Assembly: GCA_913060865.1 (NCBI GenBank)
Contig: CAJXTU010000009.1
Span: forward strand, 1-64,000
Direction: 5' to 3'
DNA length: 64,000 bases
From: an uncultured Cycloclasticus sp.
GTDB lineage: Bacteria; Pseudomonadota; Gammaproteobacteria; Methylococcales; Cycloclasticaceae
The position numbers and the translations under genes are program-made. The notes under the pieces were generated by a model, which did no database searches, was not told where the DNA came from, and was given only the letters and a program-made list of their open reading frames with translations. Below are positions 6,401 to 48,900 of the stretch, piece by piece. Every line of letters begins with the position of its first letter. Within the stretch, counting starts at the first letter, position 1.

Positions 6401-6978
6401 TGACGCGTTGCTAATCCGAGTAGTTGGTTATTTAAAGCGTCTTCACCTTCACGCCCCACGCGTTGAAGCTCAATATAAAACCGATCACCGAATACCTGCA
6501 TCCACGACGCAGCTATTTGATCAGCTGCTTCTAGGTCATTAGATTCAAGAGAAGTAAAAAAAACACCCTCTAAGCCACCTGATAAAACTATTAAACCATT
6601 ATTATTATCAAATATTTTTTGACTCGTTAAAAAAGGGACGCCCTTATCTTGGCCGTGCAAATATGCATCTGAAATCAATTCACATAAGGCTAAATAACCT
6701 TGCTTATTTTGCACCAACAAGGTCACTGTATAGGGCATTTTTTGACTAATAGAATCCCTAATTTGAATATCTGCACCAATAATAGGTTTAACACCCGCAC
6801 TGATAGCAGCGCGATAAAACTTAACCGCGGCAAATAAATTAGATTGATCGGTCACCCCTATCGCGGGCATTGAAAGTTCTGCCGCTCTTTTCACTAAAGG
6901 TTTTACACGAATAATACCATCAACCAGTGAGTACTCAGTATGGTTGCGTAGGTGAATAAATTTAACGTGCTCACTCAT
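3475..6978 (-). CDS. dnaE: DNA polymerase III subunit alpha
   Basis: Catalytic subunit of the replicative polymerase. At 1167 residues it is close to the E. coli length of 1160. The N-terminal PHP domain begins FIHLRNHTEYSLVDG. The polymerase active site shows PDFDVDFCMDGRDRVIDYV around residue 400, and the fingers region has GVILYQEQVMQIAQ and RRAMGKKKPEEM. An OB-fold follows (GLVLEVRTRPTKSG). No proofreading exonuclease insertion is seen, as expected for the DnaE1 type with a separate DnaQ. The start ATG overlaps the rnhB stop by four bases, so translation is coupled. Confidence 0.97.
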   Translation of the reverse strand: MSEHVKFIHLRNHTEYSLVDGIIRVKPLVKRAAELSMPAIGVTDQSNLFAAVKFYRAAISAGVKPIIGADIQIRDSISQKMPYTVTLLVQNKQGYLALCELISDAYLHGQDKGVPFLTSQKIFDNNNGLIVLSGGLEGVFFTSLESNDLEAADQIAASWMQVFGDRFYIELQRVGREGEDALNNQLLGLATRHQVPIVATNTPCFLNQEEFNAHEARVCINQGRVLSDSRRVKVHTEQQYLKTQQEMLELFSDVPEAIENTVEIAKRCNVELSLGENFLPNFPVPEGMTIDEYFADLSQKGLDTRIVETSHRITFDENKRAEYQARLKRELDVICQMGFPGYFLIVADFIQWAKDNKVPVGPGRGSGAGSIVAYALRITDLDPLEFDLLFERFLNPERVSMPDFDVDFCMDGRDRVIDYVGEKYGRDKVSQIITYGSMAAKAVIRDVGRVLGHPYGFVDRLAKAIPFEIGMTLTKALDESPDLLSAYQDEDEVKELIDLALMLEGIARNAGKHAGGVVISPSKLTDFSPLYCEEGGANLVTQFDKDDIEAVGLVKFDFLGLRTLTIIDWALQNINQRKEVKGEEKINIDLLPRDDELTYELLKNYATTAVFQLESRGMKDLIRRLRPDSFEDIIALVALFRPGPLQSGMVDDYINVKHGRKKAEYPHPTLIPILEPTNGVILYQEQVMQIAQDLAGYSLGSADLLRRAMGKKKPEEMAKQREMFTTGAVANNVDESVATYIFDLMEKFAGYGFNKSHSAAYALIAYQTAWLKAHYPSEFMAAVLSSDMDNTDKVVLFIDECRDMGLDILPPDVNSSEYRFTTNEEGQIIYGLGAIKGVGEAAIESIIEQRKSDGAYLSHEDLARRIDLRKANRRVQEALIRSGAADCFDDNRAKLMHELSNVLQVAEQHGKSAAVGQNDLFGLSLVETSQQSDPINIEQWTEHERLKQEKSILGLYLTGHPFDSVRDEMMSVVSGKLSTLHDMELSSPAGGQYRRAKGKPVTVAGLVLEVRTRPTKSGSKIATIIIDDGSARMEAVAYSEVFENYNEILLTDQIVVIEGSISFDDFAGQNRISIESVMTIEQARARFLKDLFIELDGKSLKQENQVNQLHELLSVYRGGECPVRIKLTLDGASSALNLSDEWRVSPKDALLEGLRNVLPEQHRFIRY

Positions 6979-7541
6979 GCTAACAATTGCCTCACTGGAG
7001 AGAATGATTGACGATAAATAGGCACAACTCCGAGACTTGCTAGTCTTTTTTTATGATCAGGTGTTGGGTACCCCGCATGTTTAGCCAAATCATAACCAGG
7101 GTATAGAACATCAAGAATAGCCATATGCTCATCACGGTATACTTTTGCAATAATAGAGGCGGCAGAAATTTCAGCAATTATATTATCCCCACCCTTGATA
7201 CACTCACCGTCGATATCAATATCTGGATAAAATATGCCGTCTACTTGGGCAAAATCTGCTTTTACAGTTAGTCCATCAAATGCACGTTTCATCGCTAACA
7301 AACTGGCTTGTAAAATATTTATATTATCTATTTCTTGCACATCTGAACAACCAATTGACCAATCTAAAGCTTTTGCAAAAATTTTGCTAGACAGCTCCAT
7401 TCTTCTTTTTTTGGTTAATTTCTTAGAATCCATTAAACCCTCAATAGGTTTACGATGATCTAAAATGACGGCAGCAGCAACAACTGGCCCCGCAATACAG
7501 CCACGGCCAACCTCATCAAAACCAACAACAACTTGAGTCAA
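6975..7541 (-). CDS. rnhB: ribonuclease HII
   Basis: RNase HII removes single ribonucleotides and RNA primers from DNA. The 188-residue protein opens with VVGFDEVGRGCIAGPVVAAAVIL, which holds the catalytic Asp-Glu pair, followed by DSKKLTKKRR and, later, AEISAASIIAKVYRDEHM with the third acidic site region. Length is typical. The gene overlaps both neighbours by four bases (lpxB upstream, dnaE downstream), the lpxB-rnhB-dnaE order found in E. coli. Confidence 0.96.
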   Translation of the reverse strand: MTQVVVGFDEVGRGCIAGPVVAAAVILDHRKPIEGLMDSKKLTKKRRMELSSKIFAKALDWSIGCSDVQEIDNINILQASLLAMKRAFDGLTVKADFAQVDGIFYPDIDIDGECIKGGDNIIAEISAASIIAKVYRDEHMAILDVLYPGYDLAKHAGYPTPDHKKRLASLGVVPIYRQSFSPVRQLLA

Positions 7542-8713
7542 GACGAGATTTCTCCAGTAATAACTTTTGAGACAATATTTGCGGCCTGAGTACTAGCATC
7601 ACATGTTAGTTGCGTCTTCATCTTGCTAAACTCATTAACCATATTCTCCCCAATATTTTTATCTTGATATATTCTCAGTAACTCCTCGGATAAAATCTCC
7701 GAAGTGACATTTTTATGAAGGATTTCTTTCACAATTTCTTTCCCAGCAATTAAATTTGGCATGGATACATACGGTGCTTTTAACAAATTAAATGTTTTGA
7801 AAACCCAAGTCGTTAATGCTGATAACTTATATGCAACAACCATTGGTTTTTTTAATAACATTACTTCTAACGTAGCCGTTCCAGAAGCGACTAATACAAT
7901 ATTAGATGCCGCAATCATTTCGTTTGCAGCTCTAACACGCATATCCAAATCGAGCAGAAAACCTGATTTTTTGTAAATATCACTAAATATATCAGCCGTT
8001 CCTTGGTCTGCCATCGGCACTAAAATTTTCAGATTAGGAATACTCTCTGAACAAATTTTTGCAGCTTCTAAAAAAATTTGACTGTGTCTTTCAAGCTCAC
8101 CTACTCGACTACCGGGCATTATGGTAAGCATTGGCTGTTCCCTTTTGATACCTAAGGCTTTTCTGGCAGCTAGCGTTTCTAGGTGATTTTTATACTGATC
8201 GGCTAAAGGATGACCTATAAAATAGGCAGGTACAGGCGTCTTTTCAAAATATTTTTCTTCAAACGGAAAAATACAAAGCAACGCACTCAATGAACCAATT
8301 AATTTTTTAATTCTCTTCGGTCGCCAAGCCCATACAGTTGGACTCACGTAATGTACTGTTTTAACCCCTTGCTTAAACAGGTCATGTTCCAGTTTTAAAT
8401 TAAAATCTGGCGCATCAATACCAATAAACACATCAGGTTTTTGCTGCAGAATACGTTGTTTTAGATTTTTTCTAATCGTCAATAACTCGGGCAAGTGCTT
8501 TATTACTTCGAACAAACCAAAAACTGATAGTTTAGACATGGGATAAAAAGACTGAAAACCTTCAGCTAACATTCGAGGACCACCTATACCAGAAAATTCA
8601 GCATTAGGATAAGATTTTTTCAAGCGGTTAATTAAGCCTGCACCAAGAATATCCCCTGAATGCTCACCGGCGACTAACATTATTTTTAAAGGTTTATTTA
8701 TTACACTAGGCAT
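7538..8713 (-). CDS. lpxB: lipid-A-disaccharide synthase
   Basis: LpxB, a GT19 glycosyltransferase at the inner membrane, joins UDP-2,3-diacylglucosamine and lipid X to form the lipid A disaccharide. The 391-residue product shows IMLVAGEHSGDILGAGL near the N terminus, YVSPTVWAWRPKRIKKL, the PGSRVGELERH nucleotide-binding loop and SGTATLEVMLLKKPMVVAYK. All are typical of LpxB. The gene lies 62 bases after lpxA and overlaps rnhB. Together with lpxA, lpxD and fabZ it makes an Outer-membrane-bearing cell certain. Confidence 0.96.
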   Translation of the reverse strand: MPSVINKPLKIMLVAGEHSGDILGAGLINRLKKSYPNAEFSGIGGPRMLAEGFQSFYPMSKLSVFGLFEVIKHLPELLTIRKNLKQRILQQKPDVFIGIDAPDFNLKLEHDLFKQGVKTVHYVSPTVWAWRPKRIKKLIGSLSALLCIFPFEEKYFEKTPVPAYFIGHPLADQYKNHLETLAARKALGIKREQPMLTIMPGSRVGELERHSQIFLEAAKICSESIPNLKILVPMADQGTADIFSDIYKKSGFLLDLDMRVRAANEMIAASNIVLVASGTATLEVMLLKKPMVVAYKLSALTTWVFKTFNLLKAPYVSMPNLIAGKEIVKEILHKNVTSEILSEELLRIYQDKNIGENMVNEFSKMKTQLTCDASTQAANIVSKVITGEISS

Positions 8714-8775
8714 GATCTAAAAGAACGTAATATTATTACTTCCAACAAACGTCGTAACACGTTCGTAACGTATAT

Positions 8776-9546
8776 TTAACGTAAAATACTACGGTTTGAG
8801 TTTTCTAAAAACTCCACCAGAACGTTTAATTCAGGTTGCTCTCTAGCCATTTCAGCTAATTTAACAGACGCATCAGAAAGCTTCATTCCTGATTTATAAA
8901 GTACTTTATAAGCGCGCTTAATATGTAAAATAATCTCTTTAGAGAACCCCCTTCTATCCAAACCAACTGAGTTTATGCCGTGTGGTTTAGTGGGCCGCCC
9001 CCCAACCATAACAAATGGTGGAACATCCTTGGTAATTGCGCTACCCATTGCAGCAAAGCAGTGATCACCTAAATGGCAAAATTGATGTACGATTGAGAAG
9101 CCACCTAAAATCACGTTGTTTCCTAAATGGACGTGCCCACCTAACGAGGCAGCATTTGCAAGGATAACATCATCTGCAATAACACAATCGTGAGCCACAT
9201 GAGTGTAAGCCATTAATAAGTTATTACTCCCAATAATCGTAATATTCTTATCTTGGCTTGTGCCCCTATGTATCGTTGTGAACTCGCGTATTTCGTTGTT
9301 ATCACCAATTTCTAAAAATGATTTTTCACCTGCATACTTTTTATCTTGAGGGTCTTCACCTATTGAAGAAAACTGGTAAATTCGATTGTTTTTTCCAATT
9401 TTTGTAGTGCCGTTAATAGTGACATGAGGACCAATAATAGTACCTGAACCGATTGAAACGTTCGCGCCTATGACAGTATACGGACCAATTTCTACATTCT
9501 CATCAACGTTTGATGTTGGGTCAATAATAACTGTTTGATGAATCAT
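8776..9546 (-). CDS. lpxA: acyl-ACP--UDP-N-acetylglucosamine O-acyltransferase
   Basis: LpxA performs the first step of lipid A synthesis, moving a hydroxyacyl chain from ACP to UDP-GlcNAc. I place the start at the ATG at 9546 (MIHQTVIIDPT), overlapping the fabZ stop as ATGA; an upstream in-frame start would run eight codons into fabZ and lacks family similarity. This gives 256 residues. Left-handed beta-helix hexapeptide repeats (for example VEIGPYTVIGANVSIGSG) fill the first 190 residues. The catalytic histidine lies in THVAHDC. Confidence 0.95.
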   Translation of the reverse strand: MIHQTVIIDPTSNVDENVEIGPYTVIGANVSIGSGTIIGPHVTINGTTKIGKNNRIYQFSSIGEDPQDKKYAGEKSFLEIGDNNEIREFTTIHRGTSQDKNITIIGSNNLLMAYTHVAHDCVIADDVILANAASLGGHVHLGNNVILGGFSIVHQFCHLGDHCFAAMGSAITKDVPPFVMVGGRPTKPHGINSVGLDRRGFSKEIILHIKRAYKVLYKSGMKLSDASVKLAEMAREQPELNVLVEFLENSNRSILR

Positions 9547-11619: not shown

Positions 11620-13914
11620 CTAAATTCCAGAACCAAAAGCAAATTGGAAAGTTTGAACTTCATCATCTTCACCATCATTCATTGGCATAGCCAAACTGAA
11701 CGATAGCGCACCGAATGGCGACAACCATTTTGCAGACACACCAACGGAGTACCTAAGTTCACCTAGGTCTATTTCATCATCATAAACATTACCAGCATCG
11801 ACAAAGGTACTCATTCTTACTGTTTTACTCTCTGGCATAAAAGGAACAGGGAATATGAATTCAGCATTTCCAACCAATTTAACGCTACCACCAATAGGAT
11901 CATCAAAAACATCTCTAGGACCTAATGTATTATCGTTAAAACCCCTGACTGAACCTTTACCACCGGCATAATAATTTTCAAAGAATGGTAGCGACTCTGC
12001 ATCCCCATAAGAGTCACCATAGCCAAAATCAGCATTCAAATATAATGTTGTGTCATTAGTAATGGGAAAGTATTGTTTTTGATTATACGAGAGCTTGTAG
12101 AACTCGAGGTCTGAGCCCGGCACTGTGATAACACCTGACAAACGTTTAGAGCCGCCTCGTGTAGCAAAAATAGCACGGTTTCTAGTGTCTGTACCCCATA
12201 CTGCCGATGCTTTCAAATTAGTATATGAATCTCCATTTTCTATAATAAAATTATTAATTTCACCAAAAAACAAATTATCGTCTATATCAATACTCGTAAA
12301 CTCAAGATCTAAACCCAAACCAATTTTATCGCTTTCATTTAAAGGTAAGCCGAAGTTAACCCCCATATTAAATGATTCGGTTGTATAACTTGATGTATTA
12401 GCTTCATCTGCATCAGTGGTTCTATAACTGATGTTATAACCGCGACTAATCCCATCAATAGTGTAGTAAGGATTGGTATAGCCTAAACTGTAAACAGTAT
12501 TAACCGAGCTATTATTGAAGCTCGCGCTCATTCGTTTACCCGTACCAAGAAAGTTGTTTTGGCTAATACTCGCATTTAATACAAGCCCTTGTGATTGAGA
12601 AAATCCAGCGCCCGCCAAAATATTGCCTGATGATTTTTCTTTAACCGTGTATTTAATATCTACTTGATCACTGGTTCCAGAAACAGGTAAGGTCTCCACA
12701 TTGACCTCATCAAAGTGCCCTAAACGAGACAGACGACCTTTAGAGTGATCGACAGCATTCGTTGAAATAGTTGAGGCTTCCATTTGTCTAACTTCCCTTC
12801 TCAACACTTCATCACGGGTCTTAGTATTACCTTCCATGATAACGCGCCGAACATAAACACGCTTTCCAGGATCAACAAAAAAGGTGACCTTGACAGTTGA
12901 TGTTTCGTCATCAATCTCAGGAATCATATTAACATTTGCAAAAGAATACCCTGCATGCCCCAAAACAGTTGTGATGTATTCGGACGTTTGCGTTGCCTTT
13001 TTTCTAGAAAATACATCACTAGGCTGAACAATAACATATGGAATTAATTGATCAGGACTAACAATTAACTCTCCAGCCAGCTTTACCTCGCTGATGGTAT
13101 GGACCTTACCCTCGTTAATATTAATGGTGATAAAAATACCATTTTTATCCGGACTGATTGAAACCTGAGTAGATTCAACTTTAAAATTTATATAGCCCCG
13201 ATCTTGGTAGAACGAATTGACACGTTCAAGATCTGCCGATAGTTTTTGCTTAGAGTATTGATCACTATTGGTATAAAAACTAATTAAGGTAGGCCCTGTT
13301 AACTCAAACTCTTTAAGAATCTCTTCATCTGAAAATGATTTATTTCCAACAATATTGATCTTTTTAATACTGGCTGCTGACCCTTCAATAACACTAATTA
13401 AAACAGAAACTCGATTACGTTCAAGCGTCGTCACTTTACTGGTTACTTCTGCTGAATATTTGCCATTATTATAATATTGCTGTAACAATTCATTTTTAAC
13501 TTTATCGAGTACTAATGGGTTAAATACACGGCCCACTTCCATTCCAACATCACTAAATGCTTCTAATAGTTTTTCCGTTTCAATATCATCGTTACCCTCT
13601 AACTCGATACTAGTAATAGCAGGTCGTTCTTGCACGTTAATGATAATCGTGTCAGCGCTTAACTCAACATTTACATCACTAAAAAACCCCATTTGAAATA
13701 GTTGTCGAATAATGTCGCCAGACTGATCATCCTCGTATCTATCTCCCACCTTAATTGTCATCGCATTAAATACTGCGCCTGCAGTAATTCGTTGCAAACC
13801 ATTTACCCGTATATCCTTAATAACAAAAGGGTCCACAGCAAAGGCCGACGTAGATCCGAAAAGAACAAAAATTAAGGACAATCTAACGAGTAACGTTTTA
13901 AATATTTTTATCAC
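11620..13914 (-). CDS. bamA: outer membrane protein assembly factor BamA
   Basis: BamA inserts beta-barrel proteins in the outer membrane. The 764-residue precursor has a signal peptide ending SAFAVDPF, followed by five POTRA repeats (first one FVIKDIRVNGLQRITAGAVF) to about residue 420. The 16-strand barrel follows. The barrel shows YYAGGKGSVRGFNDNTLGP, containing the conserved RGF of loop 6. It ends in FAFGSGI rather than the more usual C-terminal aromatic residue. It sits between rseP and skp in the conserved order. Confidence 0.97.
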   Translation of the reverse strand: MIKIFKTLLVRLSLIFVLFGSTSAFAVDPFVIKDIRVNGLQRITAGAVFNAMTIKVGDRYEDDQSGDIIRQLFQMGFFSDVNVELSADTIIINVQERPAITSIELEGNDDIETEKLLEAFSDVGMEVGRVFNPLVLDKVKNELLQQYYNNGKYSAEVTSKVTTLERNRVSVLISVIEGSAASIKKINIVGNKSFSDEEILKEFELTGPTLISFYTNSDQYSKQKLSADLERVNSFYQDRGYINFKVESTQVSISPDKNGIFITININEGKVHTISEVKLAGELIVSPDQLIPYVIVQPSDVFSRKKATQTSEYITTVLGHAGYSFANVNMIPEIDDETSTVKVTFFVDPGKRVYVRRVIMEGNTKTRDEVLRREVRQMEASTISTNAVDHSKGRLSRLGHFDEVNVETLPVSGTSDQVDIKYTVKEKSSGNILAGAGFSQSQGLVLNASISQNNFLGTGKRMSASFNNSSVNTVYSLGYTNPYYTIDGISRGYNISYRTTDADEANTSSYTTESFNMGVNFGLPLNESDKIGLGLDLEFTSIDIDDNLFFGEINNFIIENGDSYTNLKASAVWGTDTRNRAIFATRGGSKRLSGVITVPGSDLEFYKLSYNQKQYFPITNDTTLYLNADFGYGDSYGDAESLPFFENYYAGGKGSVRGFNDNTLGPRDVFDDPIGGSVKLVGNAEFIFPVPFMPESKTVRMSTFVDAGNVYDDEIDLGELRYSVGVSAKWLSPFGALSFSLAMPMNDGEDDEVQTFQFAFGSGI

Positions 13915-40498: not shown

Positions 40499-40585
40499 TC
40501 TAAACGACCAAGCTCAGATGCCGTAAAAAGCAGAGCGACAATAGGAGCGGCGCTTTTTACGATCAGCTGGAGCGCCTGGTTATGC
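40499..40585 (-). repeat. attC site after higBA (array end)
   Basis: Minus strand: GCATAAC at 40585-40579 and GTTTAGA at 40505-40499, 87 bases. The arms pair well (AACCAGGCGCTCCAGCTG against the rc of CATCTGAGCTTGGTCGTT), and the middle contains GTAAAAAGC/GCTTTTTAC. The higA stop TAA is part of the first box. Confidence 0.85.
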
Positions 40586-40897
40586 CATGTTTTGCACATG
40601 CTTAAAGTCCAGAATGGACTCAATTTCTTTTTTTTCTGTATTTTGAGTTTTATATAACTCCCACCTCATTTGCAAATTTAGCCAGAAATCTGGCGATACA
40701 CCAAAAAATTTACCCAACCGTAAAGCAGTGCTTGGAGTTACACCTCGCTTTTGATTAACTAGCTCGTTAATACGTTGATATGGAACATGAACCGCCTCCG
40801 CAAGCTCACGCTGGGTTATATTCATGGGAACAAGAAATTCTTCTCGTAGCATTTCCCCAGGATGGGTTGGTTCTCTATGTGTTGGAATTCTCATCAT
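40580..40897 (-). CDS. higA: HigA-family antitoxin
   Basis: A 105-residue XRE/Cro DNA-binding antitoxin. Seen: PTHPGEMLREEFLVPMNITQ, then the helix-turn-helix QRELAEAVHVPYQRINELVN, and GKFFGVSPDFWLNLQMRWEL, all typical of HigA. It would bind and neutralise HigB and repress the operon through the inverted repeat at the higB start. It lies nine bases downstream of higB with AAAGG before the start. Its stop codon falls inside the attC box, so the gene fills the cassette completely. Confidence 0.92.
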   Translation of the reverse strand: MMRIPTHREPTHPGEMLREEFLVPMNITQRELAEAVHVPYQRINELVNQKRGVTPSTALRLGKFFGVSPDFWLNLQMRWELYKTQNTEKKEIESILDFKHVQNMA

Positions 40898-40906
40898 ATT
40901 CTGCCT

Positions 40907-41200
40907 TTAATGATAATCTGTTATTTCTACGTTTGCTGGGCCTAACTCTTCCCAAGTGAAACAAATTCGATATTGCCCATTGATACGGATACTGCAAGAA
41001 TCCACTCTGTCTCCAGAAAGGCTTTCTAACCGATTTCCCGGAGGAACTTTCAGTTCTTCCAAAGACTGAACTGAATCTAGTTGATCCAACTTCCTAGCTG
41101 CAATACGCCATAGTGTTTGCAGGCAAGCCTTCCGTGCTACTTTTGAATTGATACCGTTAAATATATCTTTAGTAGCTTTACCTTTGAACGATACGATCAT
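40907..41200 (-). CDS. higB: HigB-family toxin (RelE/ParE fold mRNA interferase)
   Basis: A 97-residue toxin that would cleave mRNA on the ribosome. Seen: MIVSFKGKATKDIFNG, ARRKLDQLDSVQSLEELKVP-like segment (ARKLDQLDSVQSLEELKVPP), GNRLESLSGDRVDSCSIRING, and QYRICFTWEELGPANVEITDYH, the HigB family signature. The toxin-first order is typical of higBA. The ATG overlaps the likely operator and no Shine-Dalgarno is visible, so the message may be leaderless. Addiction modules of this kind are common in cassette arrays and help hold them in the genome. Confidence 0.92.
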   Translation of the reverse strand: MIVSFKGKATKDIFNGINSKVARKACLQTLWRIAARKLDQLDSVQSLEELKVPPGNRLESLSGDRVDSCSIRINGQYRICFTWEELGPANVEITDYH

Positions 41201-41256: not shown

Positions 41257-41352
41257 GCATAACGCCAAGCTCAACTGCGTAGCGAACTGGCGGGCTTTTT
41301 GGAACAAAAAGCGTGACAGTTTGCGGAGTCAGATTGCAGTTTTTTGTTAGGG
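41257..41352 (-). repeat. attC site
   Basis: Minus strand: CCCTAAC (41352-41346) to GTTATGC (41263-41257), 96 bases. A perfect GCTTTTTG/CAAAAAGC hairpin occupies the centre. The stop of the upstream 280-residue gene lies in the first box. Confidence 0.85.
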
Positions 41353-42189
41353 GTTTACTCCCGTTACATGTAATTTGAAGACTTCATCTTCACCGAATGG
41401 ATTTGACTCCATTTCTATCAAACAGTGCAATTCAACCTGTGGCTTGAGCATTGAATAAATATAGTCGACGTTATCTTGATTGCCAAATATTTCAAATGAA
41501 TACTCACCTTCTGGCACTGGTTGGGATGACGACGCTACCGACAACTTACCTACATTCTTATATTTATTGAAATCGTATATCTCGCAGCTAAGTTCAACTG
41601 TGTCTTTTTCTATTCTTCTGGGCACATCAAACATTCGGCGGTCATTAGGGCCAATGTATATATCTGGAGCTTCTTGGTTCACAGGGTTCGCAGATATATG
41701 ATCAAGCTTTTTGGGATCAATCATTCCAGCAAGACTTTGATAGTTAGGCAGCGCAAGCTTCCCTATTTGAATTACCTGAGCATGATAGTGGTGATGTGTA
41801 TCGCCAATGATCACCGTTGCATCGCCATCATTGTTAAATGCATAACTAGGCTTCTCTCCTTTTTGAACAGCACCGCAAACTAACTTTAAGAATCCAAAGG
41901 AGTCCTTTGTGAAGTCCCAAAGGTTTTGAGGACCAAGGGAACTCACGAGAGGTAGTGTTAGTTGAACGCCAGAAAGAATAATTTCAAATTGCGTAAGAAG
42001 CGACCCTCTTTCAAAATTTGTAGCTAGAAGGGAAAACACGTCTCTGTCTTTAGCTGACATGCGTTTCGCACCGGAAAATCCGAGATAGGATTTATCAACA
42101 ACTCCTTGGAAATTATCAAGCGCTGTTACAGCAATATGAATTGGCACTCCTTCTCGTAAGGCTGACCCATCAATTTTGAATTCATGCAC
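41347..42189 (-). CDS. cassette-encoded hypothetical protein, 280 residues
   Basis: I do not recognise a characterised function. The N-terminal part (EFKIDGSALREGVPIHIAVTALDNFQ, then AKDRDVFSLLATNFERGSLL) looks like a conserved domain seen in uncharacterised bacterial proteins. A hydrophobic middle (TQFEIILSGVQLTLPLVSSL) is followed by a His-rich loop GDTHHHYHAQV near residue 133. The C-terminal third is beta-rich. No signal peptide is seen. The gene is alone in its cassette, between higBA and the Kiwa-like pair, so a defence or regulatory role is possible but unproven. Confidence 0.75.
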   Translation of the reverse strand: MHEFKIDGSALREGVPIHIAVTALDNFQGVVDKSYLGFSGAKRMSAKDRDVFSLLATNFERGSLLTQFEIILSGVQLTLPLVSSLGPQNLWDFTKDSFGFLKLVCGAVQKGEKPSYAFNNDGDATVIIGDTHHHYHAQVIQIGKLALPNYQSLAGMIDPKKLDHISANPVNQEAPDIYIGPNDRRMFDVPRRIEKDTVELSCEIYDFNKYKNVGKLSVASSSQPVPEGEYSFEIFGNQDNVDYIYSMLKPQVELHCLIEMESNPFGEDEVFKLHVTGVNP

Positions 42190-42215: not shown

Positions 42216-42287
42216 CCCTAACGCCTTACTCACCGGAATTTTGGGAGCGAAGCGAGTAAAATTTCCGAGTGCAGTGATTTGTTAGCA
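42216..42287 (-). repeat. attC site
   Basis: Minus strand: TGCTAAC (42287-42281) to GTTAGGG (42222-42216), 72 bases. The stem shows CGGAAATTTT opposite AAAATTCCG. It is related to the site at 47994. Confidence 0.88.
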
Positions 42288-42289
42288 TG

Positions 42290-43177
42290 CTACCGCGCAC
42301 GTTTAGAGTTAGTTAAGTAATTATTACCAGACAACGGCCCTTTATATATATCTTCTAATAAAAAGTGCAGCACCTCTTTGAGTTTTTTCTTATCACTTGG
42401 CAATGTTATTTTGCCATTATTTACAACGATTGAAATATCAGAGAAATTGGCCGCCGCTGTAGATATTTGGGTAACAGTATAGTTGTCTAATACCCCCGAA
42501 CTTTCAATAGAATGCGCCATCTTTCTTACTTGCGTATCAGCTTTTGAGATAAAACTTGCAAGGTCAGCAATTTCCAATGAGGCATGTTGAGACATCTGAT
42601 TTAAGTCTTCGTCTGTTGCTTCTCTATAAAACTCAGATAGATCAAAAACCATTCGAGCATTGTGAAAGCTTTTAAATTTCGTTTTATTGTCTTCAATGAT
42701 TGCTACTAACTTATTATCAATCGTAAATATGTCATCAGTTGTTTTTACAAACGTATTGCCAGTTTGCATCTTTATTAGTGGGAGCTGATTTAGCGAAAGA
42801 GCCTGTCTTGATGAAAACTTTTGAACAAACACTTTGGTTTGACCATTTGTAATTATGCCTGTGAATATTGCTTTTATCGGCTCATTTGAAAAATTGGAAA
42901 TATTCACATCAGTAAAAGATGATGCATTTGCATTGATTACATTCCTCATCAACGTTGATTCACTAATATCATCAATAGTGAGGACTTCATTTGCGTCTGG
43001 CTTCCAGTCACCATTAAAATCCACTTCAGTATCTACTCCCTGCTCAAAGAACACTCGCTGATCTTCAAATATTTGAATCAGCTCTGACTGAAGTGGATTA
43101 TTTACCCTAACTCGTTTAATTTGACAGCTGCCGCTATCGTCCTTAATAAAAGCGAAAAAATTCTGCTGTGCTGTCAT
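42290..43177 (-). CDS. kwaB: KwaB-like DUF4868 protein (Kiwa anti-phage system)
   Basis: A 295-residue soluble protein that I assign to DUF4868/KwaB. Two regions support this: a middle block with FVKTTDDIFTIDNKLVAIIE then NKTKFKSFHNARMVFDLSEFY, and the C terminus KKLKEVLHFLLEDIYKGPLS followed by GNNYLTNSKRAR, matching the Leu-rich helix and final Y..nSK motif of the family. It starts one base after the stop of a four-TM membrane protein, the KwaA-KwaB arrangement. In Kiwa, KwaA senses phage infection at the membrane and KwaB acts on phage DNA replication and transcription. The assignment is from recalled family patterns, not a profile search. Confidence 0.65.
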   Translation of the reverse strand: MTAQQNFFAFIKDDSGSCQIKRVRVNNPLQSELIQIFEDQRVFFEQGVDTEVDFNGDWKPDANEVLTIDDISESTLMRNVINANASSFTDVNISNFSNEPIKAIFTGIITNGQTKVFVQKFSSRQALSLNQLPLIKMQTGNTFVKTTDDIFTIDNKLVAIIEDNKTKFKSFHNARMVFDLSEFYREATDEDLNQMSQHASLEIADLASFISKADTQVRKMAHSIESSGVLDNYTVTQISTAAANFSDISIVVNNGKITLPSDKKKLKEVLHFLLEDIYKGPLSGNNYLTNSKRAR

Positions 43178-43178
43178 T

Positions 43179-43697
43179 TTATTCCTCTACATCGATAACT
43201 ATATATTCTGTTAACTGAGCCACCGTTAAAGGTTGGCTAGCATGCCTAAGTTCTTTTTTTGTGATAAGTACGTAAGTTACACCCTCTGGCGTACCTACTT
43301 TATAAAAATGCCATTTCATGATGCCTAGAAGAGGATTGAAGTGATAGCTATATCCAGTACTGGTTATCACGGCAAATACTAATAATGTCGGAACCCAAAC
43401 TGTCCAGTTTAGTGCTGTGAAACTTGCAGTAAAAAGCGGAAGTAAATATAAAAGAAGAAAGCCCATATTTTCACGATCAGCAGCTTCAACAGTCGCTACA
43501 GAAAAATTGAAGCGCTCTAGGTTTTTCTTTGCATAGCGAAGCATCCAGATGCAAACCAGCACTAGAAATAATGAAGCGGCAATAGCCAAGCTAGCAAATG
43601 TTTTTTCGCCATCAAACCAAGCCACCCAAGCATAAGTAAAGCCTACTGGGGCTATTGCTGTGCTAGTAAGTAAAATTTTGGCCAGTGTACTTAACAC
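43179..43697 (-). CDS. kwaA: KwaA-like membrane protein (Kiwa anti-phage system)
   Basis: About 172 residues with four likely transmembrane helices: ILLTSTAIAPVGFTYAWVAWF, LAIAASLFLVLVCIWMLRY, MGFLLLYLLPLFTASFTALNW and VPTLLVFAVITSTGYSY. A small C-terminal domain follows (NPLLGIMKWHFYKV, VTYVLITKKEL, TVAQLTEYIVIDVEE). Size, helix count and tight coupling to the DUF4868 gene agree with KwaA. I favour the GTG at 43697, which has AAAGGA six bases upstream; the longer frame starts at a TTG at 43733, only seven bases from the attC core, with no ribosome site. Confidence 0.62.
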   Translation of the reverse strand: MLSTLAKILLTSTAIAPVGFTYAWVAWFDGEKTFASLAIAASLFLVLVCIWMLRYAKKNLERFNFSVATVEAADRENMGFLLLYLLPLFTASFTALNWTVWVPTLLVFAVITSTGYSYHFNPLLGIMKWHFYKVGTPEGVTYVLITKKELRHASQPLTVAQLTEYIVIDVEE

Positions 43698-43739
43698 ATT
43701 CGTTCCTTTGCTCGAAGTTGTAATTGAAGTCAATTTGCA

Positions 43740-43805
43740 TGCTAACGCCGCGCTTTGCGGAGAGCGAGCGTAGCGAGTGATTCCGACAACAGCACTTTGT
43801 TAGAG
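43740..43805 (-). repeat. attC site
   Basis: Minus strand: CTCTAAC (43805-43799) to GTTAGCA (43746-43740), 66 bases, the shortest site of the main array. It contains ACTCGCTACGCTCGCT in the loop. Arm pairing is weaker than at the other sites. Confidence 0.8.
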
Positions 43806-43810
43806 CACAT

Positions 43811-44479
43811 TTACTCTGGCTCCGAGATAAAACTTAGAAACGAATCGCCGAGACTAGTTGAGCGCTTCTGCCCCAACCCATTCCCTGACATTGTTACATT
43901 CAAGCCATCAGTATTTACCAAACCTCTTGAATTAAGGTCTTTCCACAGTTGATTGTATAGTTCTTGGCGACCACGCATTTCTGGCATGTTGTGTTCTAGC
44001 ACACTACTCAAACCACCCATACTCATGCCCGGCGGTGGTGTTGGCGCCTGAAATAGCTTGAGTATTTGAACATGTAACTCGGTTAACGTATCAACAAAAT
44101 TCAAAAATATATGCTGCATTGCCTCCTCGGGGGCTTGCCCCGTGGCAATATTTACCACAGCATTTCGTAGTGCTTCTAATTTCTCTTCTTTATGTGTTCG
44201 TAGTGCGAGTTGTGAGGCGTACATTGCAGCCGAAATGAACTGCTCATTTTCTTGAAGTGATTCTAGATCTAGCCCTTTATCTTCTAATTCTTGAAGTTTT
44301 TCCCCAACTTGAGCCATCCATTCAGATCGTCTCTTTTCTAAAGGTGGCTGCACAACATTTTGAAATAATTCAACAGCAGCTCCACCTAATACAGGTATTG
44401 CAGACAACCCAGACTTGACTACGGAATGAGCAATGTCACCTGATGATTGTGATGGAATTTTTATTTCTTTGTCGTCCAT
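43811..44479 (-). CDS. cassette-encoded hypothetical protein, 222 residues (IPVLGG type)
   Basis: Function unknown. The N terminus has a short Gly-rich hydrophobic patch (SGLSAIPVLGGAAVELFQ, residues 24-41) followed by a charged helix VVQPPLEKRRSEWMAQVGEK. The middle (ENEQFISAAMYASQLALRTH, then EEKLEALRNAVVNIA) is helical and looks conserved among uncharacterised bacterial proteins. A Pro-rich turn PTPPPGMSMGG precedes a polar C-terminal third. It has a strong ribosome site (GGGAGAGAAG before the ATG). One gene, one cassette. Confidence 0.75.
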   Translation of the reverse strand: MDDKEIKIPSQSSGDIAHSVVKSGLSAIPVLGGAAVELFQNVVQPPLEKRRSEWMAQVGEKLQELEDKGLDLESLQENEQFISAAMYASQLALRTHKEEKLEALRNAVVNIATGQAPEEAMQHIFLNFVDTLTELHVQILKLFQAPTPPPGMSMGGLSSVLEHNMPEMRGRQELYNQLWKDLNSRGLVNTDGLNVTMSGNGLGQKRSTSLGDSFLSFISEPE

Positions 44480-44497: not shown

Positions 44498-44578
44498 CTC
44501 TAACGTTTTAAAGAAGTGGCGCGCGGCTCTTTGCGCGTCCCAGTGAGCATAGCGAACGACTTGATTTTTTTGTTATAT
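44498..44578 (-). repeat. attC site, near copy of the one at 47317
   Basis: Minus strand: ATATAAC (44578-44572) to GTTAGAG (44504-44498), 81 bases. About 73 of 81 bases match the site at 47317-47397. It contains the GACGCGCAAAGAGCCGCGCGCC stem region in part. Confidence 0.88.
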
Positions 44579-45334
44579 TCACTTACAAAAAGTCCCAAAT
44601 CTTTTTTTCCACTTACGCTCAAGTGGCTTTATACGTGGTAACAGTTTTTCACAAAATTCATTAAGAGTTTCTGCCACTTTAGGATTAGACGAGCTAGTAG
44701 TGTTAAAAATAATACTAAAAGATAACCCATAAATTGCTTTTGCATTATAAAACCTGAAAGAAGCATACCTCCAATCAGTTACCTTATTGAGTTCCACATG
44801 TAACGATGGTGCAGCAGTTCCTGGGCTTGGGTGAATAGCTTTATCTCTAAAACTGAAAGTCTGTTTTATTATATTTCTCAAACTCTTGCTATTAGAATTA
44901 TTCAAACGAAACGCCATTCGAAGAACTTCTGAAATTTGCTTATACCTTGCTGTGCTATTTTCTCGCCACGAGTCTAATGTCGATTGCGAAATTTCAACAT
45001 GCTCTTTAATACTCGCATAATATGCATCTAGCGCGATACCAGTAGCCATTATTGACTGCATTCCTGCAATAGATTCTTTTTTCAAATAGAGAGAAATTTT
45101 TTCGTCATTTTTTTCCTCTTTTGCAAGCATCAGTTTCTTATGAGCTGACTCCGTATTCAATAGATGTTTGTACGCGATCTCTAACCAATACTCGGTCATG
45201 TCTATACCTAGATGAAGTACGACAGGACTAGCCTCTATCTTTCCTTTCTCATTCACAGAAATAGAAAAAGATTGAACACTAAACACGTCACCTTTAACAA
45301 GGAATACCCCAGAATCTGGTTTGGAATCTGTCAC
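44579..45334 (-). CDS. cassette-encoded protein with a HEPN-like Rx4H motif, 251 residues
   Basis: Mostly helical after residue 45. Residues 163-168 read RDKAIH within SFRDKAIHPSPG, an R-x4-H followed by Pro, the form seen in many HEPN-type RNases and HEPN-related domains. An upstream helix, GIALDAYYASIKEHVEIS, could supply the acidic residue usual in that fold. The start is GTG at 45334, with AAGGAG five bases upstream. No partner nucleotidyltransferase (MNT) gene is in the cassette. HEPN proteins often act in phage defence or as toxins; the assignment here rests on a short motif and is tentative. Confidence 0.7.
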   Translation of the reverse strand: MTDSKPDSGVFLVKGDVFSVQSFSISVNEKGKIEASPVVLHLGIDMTEYWLEIAYKHLLNTESAHKKLMLAKEEKNDEKISLYLKKESIAGMQSIMATGIALDAYYASIKEHVEISQSTLDSWRENSTARYKQISEVLRMAFRLNNSNSKSLRNIIKQTFSFRDKAIHPSPGTAAPSLHVELNKVTDWRYASFRFYNAKAIYGLSFSIIFNTTSSSNPKVAETLNEFCEKLLPRIKPLERKWKKRFGTFCK

Positions 45335-45349
45335 TGAATCTCCTTGTGA

Positions 45350-45436
45350 ATATAACGTTAGAATTAAACGGCGCCGCTTTTCGGCGTCCGAGCAGGGCAG
45401 GTTTTTTGCCCTGCGTTTTTAAATGACTTGTTATGT
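45350..45436 (-). repeat. attC site
   Basis: Minus strand: ACATAAC (45436-45430) to GTTATAT (45356-45350), 87 bases. Arms TAACAAGTCATTTAAA and TTTAATTCTAACGTTA pair. The loop carries two strong hairpins, GCAGGGCA/TGCCCTGC and GGACGCCG/CGGCGCC. Confidence 0.88.
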
Positions 45437-45940
45437 TTCGTCTTCATTTTTTGGTAACCTCCCTTTTTCAGCCTCATCCTTTACTTTATCCCATTCTATT
45501 TTAAGTAATTCTTGAACATCTGTTACCATGCCTTTTAGGTCTTTCTTTAGTTCTTCTTTTTGGCTTTCATGTGTGTGGCTTGAAATAGTATCTATCCATC
45601 CTATTATTTTTTTACCAAGTTTTTCGTTTGGGTTTATCTGAAGCTGAATAAGAATTCTTAATTGATCTATTTCCTTTAATATTTCTTTCGATTCATCACT
45701 TCCTTCTTCTACGTCCGAGATTACCCAGTTGTATGTTAAACCTGCATATTTCGATACATTTTCACGAAGTGCATTTATCCATTTCACACGCTCAGCTGTA
45801 ATAGAATTGATGTAGGTAGTGCGCCTATTGATATAGATATTATAAATAATATTACCTAGACCAATGAGGAATGTTGCAGCAATTCCTACAATATAGAATA
45901 TATCTTTAAGCTCAAATGCATCCTTTAATTCAAGAGCCAT
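45431..45940 (-). CDS. cassette-encoded membrane-anchored hypothetical protein, 169 residues
   Basis: One N-terminal transmembrane helix (IFYIVGIAATFLIGLGNIIYNIYI, residues 14-37), then a basic segment NRRTTYINSITAERVKWINA and a cytoplasmic helical, coiled-coil-like region with many Glu and Lys. This layout recurs in uncharacterised membrane proteins but I cannot name a function. AAAGGA precedes the ATG. The stop codon TAA lies inside the attC box. Confidence 0.75.
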   Translation of the reverse strand: MALELKDAFELKDIFYIVGIAATFLIGLGNIIYNIYINRRTTYINSITAERVKWINALRENVSKYAGLTYNWVISDVEEGSDESKEILKEIDQLRILIQLQINPNEKLGKKIIGWIDTISSHTHESQKEELKKDLKGMVTDVQELLKIEWDKVKDEAEKGRLPKNEDET

Positions 45941-45958: not shown

Positions 45959-46039
45959 ACATAACGCCGCAATAAAAGGCGAGCGTTAGCGAGTCCAGCC
46001 CACGCTTTTTGTGGGCGATTTTTAATTGCCTTGTTAGCT
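45959..46039 (-). repeat. attC site
   Basis: Minus strand: AGCTAAC (46039-46033) to GTTATGT (45965-45959), 81 bases. Arms AAGGCAATTAAAA and CTTTTATTGCGG pair; CGCCCAC/GTGGGC forms a side hairpin. Confidence 0.88.
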
Positions 46040-47302
46040 ATTTTCATCTTGAATAACCTTCAAGCTTTTTATTTCACTTTGTTCAGGCGGTAATAAATCT
46101 GTTATCCAATTGACTATGGCCTCCCTCGTGACCTCGAAACACATTCTATGCATATGAGAAGTATTGATTTTTTCATCGTCCATTAGGGGGTCAGAAAATC
46201 TATTCGCTTCAAACTCTCCAAGCGGAAAAGAACCAGCGTGAAAATGTGCAGACCTGACTGAACCATAGAGGTATTCCAAAAGGGGATTAATATGATCTAC
46301 TGACCTTACATATTTTCTTACGAACTCACTGAACCCATTACATGATTGGTCAGCCTTACTAATTGCTTCAACTGCCGCTACGCGATAAGCAAGCCCTACA
46401 GAAGGAAATTGAGACCCTACAGCGGCCGCTACTTGATACAAGCGTGCAGCACAATCAAATGGATCCGCTATAGATAAATCAGAAGAGTCTATTGTTTTAA
46501 GTATTTTTCTTGCCTGAGGAGGCAAGCTAAGAAGCTCACCTGCCACACGATATCGGGCCGTAAGTGATCCGCTGTATTTTCCTAGCGGGCAAACAACCCC
46601 TTTTTTTGGCATATCAGTTAATTGTGGTCCCAAGCCCCAAAATCCAAGTTGAAGTCTTTCTGATTTTTCGGATGGACGATTATCTTTAGATGGAATAACC
46701 CAGCGAGCACTTGACGAGGATTGGTATAACCCTACGTTAAGCAGGAGAGATAACCGAGCTGCTTGGCGTCTTGCTATCTCTTCCGCCAAAGCCATTGCAT
46801 CCATTTCATCTATCGCATCAACTTCAATATCAATAGATACTACTCTCTCCGCATTTATCAGATGCGGCTGATCATCATCTGGCCATACGGGAGCAAACCT
46901 TATACCGTGAAGCCAATATTCGCCATCAATTTGAGTCCCAATATAGTTGAAAAAAAACCTTCTAAAATATTTATTCTTTCTTTCTGCTATGGTTGCAGAA
47001 AAAACAGAGTTAATGAATTCTTGTGTTGCTATCTCCCAGTTGGCAACAGAAGGGGATTCTTCAGCACAAATAGCTTCTACATAAAGCAGCTCTCCTTCTA
47101 TCGATTTCACGACCCGCCATGTGATCGGAACTTCCTCTTGGTCAATTGAAAATGGTCCTGTAATGGTACTCTCAAAAGAGCCGCCATCACCGTAGCCAGC
47201 TGAACCAGAGTATCCAGAAGTACGTGCTCGAAGCTGAGAATTCAAATAATCCAAGAATAATCTTTGTCTGTTGCCTTTAGGTAGATTTAACTCAACTTTC
47301 AT
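46034..47302 (-). CDS. cassette-encoded protein with a HEPN-like C terminus, 422 residues
   Basis: No characterised family recognised over the N-terminal 270 residues, which start with a Gly/Ser-rich stretch (TSGYSGSAGYGDGG). The C-terminal helical part has YLYGSVRSAHFHAGSFPLGE; R350 and H355 make an R-x4-H, and the form 'LY..RS..xHxG' resembles the Apea-like HEPN domains of defence proteins. The ATG at 47302 has GAGAG six bases upstream; a GTG two codons earlier is also possible. The stop lies within the attC box. Role in defence is inference. Confidence 0.7.
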   Translation of the reverse strand: MKVELNLPKGNRQRLFLDYLNSQLRARTSGYSGSAGYGDGGSFESTITGPFSIDQEEVPITWRVVKSIEGELLYVEAICAEESPSVANWEIATQEFINSVFSATIAERKNKYFRRFFFNYIGTQIDGEYWLHGIRFAPVWPDDDQPHLINAERVVSIDIEVDAIDEMDAMALAEEIARRQAARLSLLLNVGLYQSSSSARWVIPSKDNRPSEKSERLQLGFWGLGPQLTDMPKKGVVCPLGKYSGSLTARYRVAGELLSLPPQARKILKTIDSSDLSIADPFDCAARLYQVAAAVGSQFPSVGLAYRVAAVEAISKADQSCNGFSEFVRKYVRSVDHINPLLEYLYGSVRSAHFHAGSFPLGEFEANRFSDPLMDDEKINTSHMHRMCFEVTREAIVNWITDLLPPEQSEIKSLKVIQDENS

Positions 47303-47316
47303 TGTCACTCTCAGAT

Positions 47317-47397
47317 AGCTAACGTTTTAAATAAGGGGCGCGCGGCTTTTTGCGCGTCCCAGTGAGCAGAGCGAACGACTTGATTTTTTTGTTATGC
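47317..47397 (-). repeat. attC site, near copy of the one at 44498
   Basis: Minus strand: GCATAAC (47397-47391) to GTTAGCT (47323-47317), 81 bases. Shares about 73 bases with the site at 44498-44578; half of the differences lie in the outermost box bases. Confidence 0.88.
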
Positions 47398-47910
47398 ATT
47401 GGACACCAGATAAACGATACGCCCCCAAAACGAAATCCAAAATATAGACGAGATAAATAAAAGCACGCTAAATAGCCACGAGGCCGCTTCTCGCTTGCCG
47501 CTGTCAGCCTCAAATTCATTCCACTTTATGTGATAAAGCCAAAGAGCCAATGTAGTGAATAAGGTGATTGCAGTAATCTCAATGCTGCTAGTTAGCATAT
47601 GCTCGAATACAGCTCCTTTGGCGATATAAGGAAATGATATTTTTGCACTTAATGTTACAGCCCAATTGATTGCAGCTGCAACGAAACACAATGATATTAA
47701 AAAGTTTGATGGATTAATTATAAATAGCTTTATTTTCGTCCCGTAATTACGTTCTTTATAGGGGTTACGAATTGAACATAAAAAGCCTAGAAACATAATA
47801 GGACCAACAAAAGTCAGTATACTTCGACCTGCAATATGCTCTTGCATTATCGTAGAAATTGGCTCGGCCAGCTTTGGAAAAAAATCACCAACGATACCAA
47901 GAAGAAACAT
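47392..47910 (-). CDS. cassette-encoded four-helix membrane protein with apparent 5' frameshift
   Basis: Function unknown; 172 residues from the ATG at 47910, with about four hydrophobic segments (SILTFVGPIMFLGFLC, FLISLCFVAAAINWAVTL, IEITAITLFTTLALWLY, LFSVLLFISSIFWISFWG). The first helix seems cut: in the same frame upstream codons read ITENIGIFVYFFIA but reach no ATG. An ATG at 47975 with AAGGA just upstream starts MDKFSHIK in another frame. One extra A in the AAAA run at 47955-47952 would join the two as MDKFSHIKITENIGIFVYFF. So the intact gene probably began at 47975. The stop lies in the attC box. Confidence 0.72.
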   Translation of the reverse strand: MFLLGIVGDFFPKLAEPISTIMQEHIAGRSILTFVGPIMFLGFLCSIRNPYKERNYGTKIKLFIINPSNFLISLCFVAAAINWAVTLSAKISFPYIAKGAVFEHMLTSSIEITAITLFTTLALWLYHIKWNEFEADSGKREAASWLFSVLLFISSIFWISFWGRIVYLVSNA

Positions 47911-47993: not shown

Positions 47994-48068
47994 GCATAAC
48001 GCCCCACATAACCGGAATTTTGCGGCGCGCAGCAGAGCAAAATGTCCGTGTTAATGTGATTGTTAGGC
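47994..48068 (-). repeat. attC site
   Basis: Minus strand: GCCTAAC (48068-48062) to GTTATGC (48000-47994), 75 bases. Good stem: CACATTAACACGG with CCGGTTATGTG, and CATTTTGC with GCAAAAT. Confidence 0.9.
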
Positions 48069-48074
48069 ATGCTA

Positions 48075-48791
48075 TTAATAATATTTGAAACCAAAAAGAT
48101 CTAGTGAAACAGCCAACCACTTTGGTTCATTATATGAGCCAGCAATGTATGCTGGTCCTCTCGAACCTTCAACATCCCAATCAGGTACTTCATTTGAAAA
48201 GCCATAAACTAGCTCAAACGCTTCTTCTGATGTAGGTAAAACTACTAGGGTGTGCTCAGGATCAAGCTGGAGTGACTCTGTATTTATTCGCCATTCTCGC
48301 TCCCAAGTAAAATCAGTTCCATTTGTTGGGTCATATGGGACAAATCGATACTTTTGGCTTTCTTTCATTTCACTTAGCTCTGATGGGTGGCCATAAATTA
48401 CTGGCCTGCCACCTTGCTTAAAAAGCCATTCTTTTGATACAGCTATGCCATAGGGCTCATACCTAGGGCGCTCATCTTCAGTTGCTGCAATTTCTGCTAA
48501 GGAAAATATTGAGTTGAATTCTTGGATTGGTGCTTCAGTAAATGAAATGCTGGGGAACCCATATGTCCAACTACTAGTTCCTATTAGCTTTGATTCATGC
48601 AGTATCTTATTAAGTACTCCACTTGCACTACCCGTTGTGTGCATAGAAGAATTCTCACCCGTACTTATTTTAAGAAATTTTTCAGTCGATGCTCGTGTAA
48701 AATGAAAAAGCATAGACCCCATATCTCGGCGTACCAAACGAATTCTTTTAGACAATTGATCCGATAATTCTGGTGTTTTGTGATCTTCCAT
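48075..48791 (-). CDS. cassette-encoded conserved hypothetical (GGRPVIY/WEREWR family), 238 residues
   Basis: First cassette of the array. Seen: MLFHFTRASTEKFLKI, SISFTEAPIQEF, YEPYGIAVSKEWLFKQGGRP then VIYG, and NGTDFTWEREWRINT. I have met this set of motifs in a widespread family of uncharacterised bacterial proteins. The opening (HFT..., L..IL.E..L.G, SFTE) recalls the entry motif of some ADP-ribosyltransferase-like toxins, but catalytic residues cannot be assigned with confidence. No ribosome site is evident; it starts 10 bases from the upstream core site. Confidence 0.75.
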   Translation of the reverse strand: MEDHKTPELSDQLSKRIRLVRRDMGSMLFHFTRASTEKFLKISTGENSSMHTTGSASGVLNKILHESKLIGTSSWTYGFPSISFTEAPIQEFNSIFSLAEIAATEDERPRYEPYGIAVSKEWLFKQGGRPVIYGHPSELSEMKESQKYRFVPYDPTNGTDFTWEREWRINTESLQLDPEHTLVVLPTSEEAFELVYGFSNEVPDWDVEGSRGPAYIAGSYNEPKWLAVSLDLFGFKYY

Positions 48792-48800
48792 ATTTTTATT

Positions 48801-48900
48801 GCCTAACTTGTTATTAAGGGGAACAAAAAGTCCCTGTAATTTCTATACATAGAAGGACTGTAATACCCTGTAATTTGATAATAAAGAACAAACAGGGAAT
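48801..48900 (-). other. upstream end of the array, candidate attI-like region
   Basis: Minus strand: AATAACAAGTTAGGC ends at the core site GTTAGGC (48807-48801), similar in form to the AAACAAAGTTAGGC end of class 1 attI. No attC-like stem is found upstream. Instead there are two copies of CCCTGTAATTT (48832-48842 and 48866-48876 on plus), a third CTGTAAT at 48858, and an inverted repeat TTCTAT-AC-ATAGAA (48841-48854). Extra integrase-binding repeats are a feature of attI, so this is a candidate only. Confidence 0.4.

Follow-up and report, generated by a model that had tools for sequence, protein, structure and literature searches.

How does a complete anti-phage defence system become a mobile unit, and how does it come to lie in an integron array that lacks its own integrase? 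We addressed these questions in a 64,000-nt stretch of DNA from an uncultured Cycloclasticus sp. (hereafter the window; features in Table 1), in which an initial annotation had pointed to a Kiwa-like gene pair between two recombination sites. Our comparisons indicate that the window very probably holds a complete, divergent Kiwa system as a single two-gene integron cassette, drawn from a pool common to marine bacteria. The unexpected part is its setting, an integrase-less array headed by a detached copy of attI, in a layout that recurs in the genus.

Table 1. Features of the Kiwa array in the window, in array order
Feature	Position	Strand	Description
Detached attI copy heading the array	48804..48886	-	no integrase beside it; 95% over 83 bp to the attI on contig C5
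Cassette 1 ORF	48075..48791	-	238 aa, no family found
attC, cassette 1	47994..48068	-	both patterns; 0.04% of shuffled arms pair as well
Cassette 2 ORF	47392..47910	-	172 aa, no family found
attC-like, cassette 2	47317..47397	-	looser pattern; type common to other arrays of the genus; pairing about as in shuffled arms
Cassette 3 ORF	46034..47308	-	424 aa, no family found
attC-like, cassette 3	45959..46039	-	both patterns; arm pairing no better than shuffled arms
Cassette 4 ORF	45431..45940	-	169 aa, no family found
attC-like, cassette 4	45350..45436	-	looser pattern; fold z -5.15; arm pairing no better than shuffled arms
Cassette 5 ORF	44579..45334	-	251 aa, no family above cut-off
attC-like, cassette 5	44498..44578	-	looser pattern; type common to other arrays of the genus; pairing about as in shuffled arms
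Cassette 6 ORF	43811..44479	-	222 aa, no family above cut-off
attC of the cassette preceding Kiwa	43743..43802	-	pattern; moderate arm pairing
Kiwa cassette	42222..43745	-	1524 bp between two inferred G^TT crossover points; seventh from the attI-like head
kwaA	43179..43697	-	172 aa, GTG start; membrane protein, putative phage-contact sensor
kwaB	42290..43177	-	295 aa, ATG start; putative DNA-binding effector
attC of the Kiwa cassette	42219..42284	-	patterns; arm pairing; matched in L006, L007 and L010
Cassette 8 ORF	41347..42189	-	280 aa, no family found
attC-like, cassette 8	41257..41352	-	looser pattern; arm pairing no better than shuffled arms
Cassette 9	40580..41200	-	HigB-like toxin 40907-41200 (PF05015, 54 bits) and HTH antitoxin 40580-40897 (PF01381, 40 bits)

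The gene pair encodes a divergent Kiwa system

As first annotated, two ORFs on the minus strand, kwaA before kwaB, are separated by a single base between the kwaA stop codon and the kwaB ATG, with a GTG start at 43697 and a second protein of 295 residues. The same adjacency, strand and order are found in five relatives from other genera (L006-L010). The ORF tool also offered a longer kwaA starting with a TTG at 43733. We disfavoured this start and consider GTG 43697 the better one, because the alignment to the PADLOC KwaA profile opens at residue 14 of the longer form, a Rheinheimera relative has an ATG at the codon matching the GTG, and in an Amphritea relative a stop codon lies two codons ahead of that position.

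Both proteins matched Kiwa models over nearly their full length (KwaA to PADLOC PDLC00221, 7.3e-75; KwaB to PDLC00234, 3e-115), and 13 PADLOC KwaA models were listed for the first protein at E values up to 1. In Pfam, KwaB scored 41 bits against PF16162 (DUF4868), above the gathering score of 26.3, and KwaA had no family above a cut-off. Solved KwaA chains were matched weakly by the single KwaA sequence (0.017 and 0.019), and at 1.4-1.5e-9 by a seven-sequence profile (chains 9mrg, 9mrr, 9mrx and 9o0i); for KwaB, neither the single sequence nor the profile found a credible chain among solved structures. Hydrophobic stretches fall within the first two thirds of KwaA. AlphaFold, given an alignment of six sequences, drew four helices for this protein at low confidence (pLDDT 46.4), and its model of KwaB (pLDDT 37.8) was too poor to use. 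We conclude from the profile matches that the pair consists of a KwaA and a KwaB homologue, in the usual Kiwa order. This bears out the initial reading of a KwaA-like membrane protein followed by a DUF4868/KwaB protein in Kiwa architecture. The search against KwaA/KwaB and PF16162 models that the annotation proposed was run, and neither of the outcomes it had named as refuting, a second protein with neither a DUF4868 hit nor a structural match to KwaB, or a membrane protein lacking KwaA similarity, appeared.

Against the NCBIfam equivalogs of the characterised Kiwa subtype, KwaA scored 45.4 bits (NF041622, cut-off 100) and KwaB 18.1 bits (NF041623, cut-off 200). As both proteins fall below these cut-offs, the pair is best described as a divergent Kiwa subtype. 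Both genes are under purifying selection: in comparisons with four close relatives, dN/dS ranged from 0.021 to 0.081 for KwaA and from 0.089 to 0.174 for KwaB; for the fifth relative, L009, dS was saturated and no value could be computed. The shortfall against the equivalogs, together with a KwaB that sequence links to no solved chain, would also suit a DUF4868 KwaB-like protein and a membrane protein with some role other than phage defence. We consider such a role very improbable, given that both proteins match Kiwa models nearly end to end, that the KwaA profile leads to solved KwaA, and that in three relatives (L013, L014 and L015) the pair lies beside genes resembling type I restriction specificity subunits, as judged from the ORFs by eye. 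By the same inspection, L016 and L017 have no obvious restriction-like neighbours.

The pair lies between two recombination sites

The initial annotation placed flanking attC sites at 42216 and 43740. The pattern CTAACAA-N45..75-GCGTTA matched the window four times, against 0.10 matches expected from shuffling; all four lie in the array, and the two that flank the Kiwa pair (42216-42287 and 43740-43805) are the sites proposed. A looser pattern, TAACAA-N50..80-CGTTA, gave nine matches against 1.91 expected: seven at array sites and two on the plus strand. Eight attC-like sites that share the orientation of the array were selected, on position and sequence, from a longer set of pattern matches.

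The arms of the Kiwa cassette's own attC pair well, to a degree matched by 0.2% of shuffled arms and by none of 13 control pairs from outside the array. They contain single unpaired bases of a kind known from attC sites. Pairing in the attC upstream of Kiwa is moderate (equalled by 9.8% of shuffled arms and 2 of 13 control pairs). Among the other six sites, one (47997-48065) pairs very well (0.04%) and five are comparable to shuffled arms (24-82%); the test set only two of the eight sites clearly apart from shuffled arms. Fold energies of the two flanking sites were unremarkable against shuffles (z -1.26 and -0.85), and those of the other six ranged from +0.37 to -5.15. The attC model used in the searches below, R1, is a sequence profile only, RNAalifold having found no base pairs on the MAFFT alignment, and by construction it matches the eight window sites. 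A home-made scan for attC arms was dropped: a shuffled 64-kb strand would be expected to give 0.78 sites of score at least 9, and the scores of several array sites did not exceed background.

A gene unit with its own attC (42219-42284), and with no promoter found in its leader, fits an integron gene cassette. The decisive evidence for a cassette is the comparison with other genomes, in which DNA similarity stops within a few bases of the two putative crossover points.

The cassette occurs in other marine genera

Five relatives, L006 to L010, were taken from GTDB contigs by a search that took close relatives only. The Oceanobacter copy (L006) is 93.3% identical over 1530 bp, with similarity running from 43746 to 42217 of the window, and the Amphritea copy (L010) 93.5% over 1529 bp, from 43746 to 42218. 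In Marinomonas (L007) identity is 92.3% over 1500 bp, from 43718 to 42219, the leader being shorter after the same GTTAGC. In all three the cassette is the only part in common with the window, the flanks differ, and the attC matches model R1. The Shewanella copy (L008, 88.4% identity) shares the 5' cassette end, which there directly adjoins an integrase (IntI 6162-7115, kwaA from 7481, pair region 7432-9226); similarity breaks off at 42279, the point at which the attC begins, and there is no R1 attC match there. The most distant of the five, from Rheinheimera (L009; 73.5% DNA identity, 74% KwaB identity), is similar from 43700 to 42279 and has no R1 attC match. DNA comparison found no other part of the window array in the five loci, and tblastn found no IntI in the fetched stretches of L006, L007, L009 and L010.

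We conclude from these alignments that the unit between the two putative IntI crossover points is present in other genera with different neighbours. The initial suggestion that the pair could move as one cassette is thereby strengthened, since similarity is confined to the cassette in three genera. In Amphritea, the gene that follows Kiwa (L010 9023-11809) codes for a protein of 928 aa that combines TPR repeats with a part resembling an NTPase; the gene has an attC match at its end (11805-11874) and found no match in PADLOC.

The KwaB model matched 3 of 61 nearer genomes and, across the class, 5 of 369; both counts include the window genome. Plasmids yielded one record in 72,556, at 33.6% identity; a DNA search of 20,395 E. 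coli genome records gave no match, and no relative of the pair was found among IMG/VR viral contigs.

The array carries no integrase and no obvious promoter for kwaAB

Read from right to left, the array comprises nine cassettes, seven of which are single ORFs without a family above a cut-off; Kiwa is the seventh cassette and a HigBA-like pair the last. No attC was confirmed after the last cassette. A possible decayed attC lies there at 40505-40586 (fold z -1.91, no R1 match).

No IntI was found in the window by tblastn. The genome has one integron integrase match above the family cut-off, at 6377-7321 of contig C5; four weaker matches (contigs C1 and C14) fall below it, as do those in all 14 control genomes. 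An integrase overlooked in the window was ruled out by the tblastn and the genome-wide family search together. With no integrase gene adjoining it, the array is not a complete integron, and with eight attC-like sites and no IntI in the window it is classed as a CALIN. On C5, the first cassette beside the integrase (L033 7519-8277, genome G000) is class D beta-lactamase-like, at 244.7 bits against an NCBIfam cut-off of 250.

The window runs continuously from a ygjP-like gene through the array to a ydbH-like gene. In another genome of the genus, G001, the ygjP-ydbH interval has other ORFs, together with an attI-like sequence and one R1 match (E 0.0009); in a third, G005, it holds neither an attI-like sequence nor an R1 match. 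Of the ORFs in the window array, the HigBA-like ones alone had relatives in the fetched arrays of the genus (33-45% identity), and recent traffic between these arrays is therefore not evident.

How the pair is expressed at position seven was considered from promoter scans, whose signals are weak. The 48-nt kwaA leader has no promoter-like site, and the scanned region has 2 sites against 5.1 expected. In the window's attI region, one site was found, on the strand opposite the array (1.0 expected); the attI region of C5 has two sites on the array strand (1.6 expected), one of which (7406-7434) lies inside the segment common with the window. Because no promoter stands out in the leader, kwaAB expression is probably dependent on read-through, or low. 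The pair could accordingly be a stored, mostly silent cassette in this host, of benefit once moved beside a promoter. We regard this as quite possible, though short of an even chance, and it is compatible with our preferred explanation of a complete Kiwa cassette. The bare leader, the six cassettes between Kiwa and the attI-like head, the lack of an integrase in the array and the Shewanella pair placed directly beside an integrase all agree with storage, whereas purifying selection shows that the pair is used somewhere, without telling where, and read-through or non-consensus promoters could still drive it here.

Detached attI copies head arrays across the genus

The segment that heads the array (48804-48886) is identical at 79 of 83 positions (95%) to C5:7405-7487, which lies between intI and the first cassette on that contig, and the similarity ends at the GTTA core. 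This finding ruled out an array that starts at a site unrelated to attI.

Such sequences are widespread in the genus. In 18 genomes we found 30 attI-like matches distributed over 15 genomes, and 26 of at least 83 bp in 13. Five of these 26 long places adjoin intI; at 19, tblastn with the C5 IntI detected no integrase within 1,500 bp on the corresponding side, and at the remaining two (L044 and L054) contig ends leave less than 400 bp on that side. Two genomes, G008 and G015, are single contigs and carry four detached copies, which assembly breaks therefore cannot explain. Of 151 genomes of the order that were searched for the element, 16 matched: 15 belong to the genus of the window, and the one outside it has a match of 26 bp. 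The attI-like family, about 95 bp long, includes the window copy (48804-48886), C5:7405-7487 of G000, and loci L032, L092-L094, L096, L098-L100, L102, L103, L106, L107 and L109-L111.

Most of the detached copies examined are followed by attC-like sites. At least 1 kb was available downstream at 16 of 21 detached sites, and R1 matches follow 13 of these 16 heads (L032, 11 of 14 others and, by construction, the window), some of them weak, with E values up to 0.037. No R1 match was found downstream of the attI copy at L099, L100 and L107. The five sites left out were L105 and L108, which are shortened by contig ends (no match), and those on G016 C192, G010 C23 and G003 C263. In the downstream search, which also covered intI-linked arrays, every one of the 21 R1 matches is on the array strand and downstream of attI.

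We also considered the genes upstream, taking the nearest frame of at least 140 aa from the two nearest listed at each of 18 detached sites. Such a frame is present at 14 of them, pointing towards the array in 11 cases and away from it in three (G002, G001 C71 and G004); the other four have none of at least 140 aa among the two nearest. The 14 sites are not independent, because two pairs represent the same place in two species, behind a YgjP-like gene in G000 and G001 and behind a gene that reads as MnmE-like in G011 and G013. YgjP is the one upstream gene confirmed by family search.

Ten detached copies lie in genomes that have a matching intI-linked attI. For five of them, the best of the five intI-linked attI sequences was that of their own genome, with about two expected by chance. 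Over the same 83 bp, the window copy is 95% identical to its own C5 attI and 80% to the copy at the matching site in G001.

The attC-like sites at 47317-47397 and 44498-44578 have counterparts of 77-91% identity in other species of the genus, both in detached arrays (L093, L094 and L102) and in an intI-linked one (L095). Unlike those two, the Kiwa attC has its matches in L006, L007 and L010, within the common cassette. The genus also has a second integrase type (L065, L068, L069, L072 and L074), about 66% identical to the C5 IntI and with a different attI.

Possible working branch arrays or relics of complete integrons

The likeliest source of recombination for the array would be an IntI encoded elsewhere in the genome and acting in trans. 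We tentatively propose, at not quite an even chance, that the genus has a distributed integron, in which separate arrays with their own attI heads, often placed just behind conserved genes, would be filled by an IntI made elsewhere, the Kiwa array being one such outpost. Three observations favour use of the heads in trans: the greater identity of the window copy to its own intI-linked attI than to the G001 matching-site copy, an attI-like element that can still be made out over about 95 bp at many loci lacking intI, and the related attC sites in detached and intI-linked arrays alike.

The same three observations speak against the reading that the array is a relic, in which the integrase of a complete integron was deleted and its attI left behind, and that the other integrase-less attI sites of the genus arose likewise. 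This reading, whose probability we place somewhat below one half, draws on a detached copy in G005 (C23) that seems, by eye, to keep the first IntI codons before attI. Two further genomes, G001 and G016, have detached copies of this type, yet the complete IntI found in these fragmented assemblies is 66-67% identical to the C5 IntI and has another attI. A relic would also agree with the absence from the window copy of the promoter-like site that the C5 attI has on its array strand.

Proposed mode of action

In the published system, as reviewed, KwaA tetramers in the inner membrane and KwaB dimers form a fence-like supercomplex that senses infection by a phage; KwaB binds the DNA that the phage injects and, without cutting it, blocks its replication and late transcription (PMC12904381). 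By analogy, the KwaA of the window would form a tetramer in the inner membrane that senses infection, and KwaB dimers attached to it would bind incoming phage DNA and stop its replication and late transcription. We infer this activity for a distant relative of the studied proteins: with the scores below the equivalog cut-offs and no credible solved chain for KwaB, the published mechanism is one carried over. Integron biology suggests the mode of spread. IntI would recombine the attC, in its folded form, with either an attI or an attC, and kwaA and kwaB would thereby move, and be inherited, together.

Significance and relation to known systems

The finding of a complete defence system that travels between marine genera as a 1.5-kb cassette, its edges sharp to within a few bases, lends support to the idea that integrons are common stores of phage defence. 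Should the detached attI heads be functional, integrons would not necessarily be single-locus systems, and one integrase could serve many capture sites. Some integrase-less attC clusters that are called remnants would then be working branch stations, which give new cassettes the first-in-line position, and arrays filed as remnants would need a second look. The cassette picture of the initial annotation has thus held up; the integrase-less array and its detached attI head lie beyond it, as does the fact that Kiwa cassettes were already in print.

Kiwa in integron cassettes is already known from Xanthomonas, where, in the part of that report available to us, Kiwa and Shedu are among twelve systems detected by DefenseFinder in cassettes (PMC12444791). 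The alignments of the window with other genomes give clean evidence that a Kiwa cassette has moved between genera. Among the titles and abstract beginnings listed in searches of an open-licence library, there was no description of integrase-less arrays headed by attI copies.

Compared with Kiwa as described, the window pair has the same kwaA-kwaB order, nearly full-length PADLOC matches and a KwaA related to solved chains. It differs in scoring under the NCBIfam cut-offs for the characterised subtype and in lying in an integron cassette, whereas the L013-L015 relatives lie beside restriction-like genes (by eye). With the Xanthomonas defence cassettes it shares a defence system as cassette cargo; the hosts are others, and for the window a complete pair in a single cassette is established, whereas the accessible part of that paper does not state if one cassette held both Kiwa genes (PMC12444791).

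The array resembles a CALIN in its eight attC-like sites without an integrase and differs in opening with a recognisable attI copy. According to the portion of its description that we could consult, IntegronFinder 2.0 does not detect attI outside class 1, where such sites are poorly described (PMC9024848), and attI heads on CALIN could therefore be missed. Two known phenomena also involve attI sequence in unusual positions, each compared here from the accessible text of one paper. The delta-attI-type cassettes of mobile integrons likewise have attI sequence away from its usual place; there, pieces of attI are recombination sites of unusual cassettes, whereas in the window a near-complete attI heads an array (PMC12901181). 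Reactions between attI and attI-like sites have been reported, with attI-like sites frequent across genomes (PMC10127599). That work concerns secondary sites; the heads in Cycloclasticus are long copies of the genus's own attI, and most of those examined are followed by attC-like sites.
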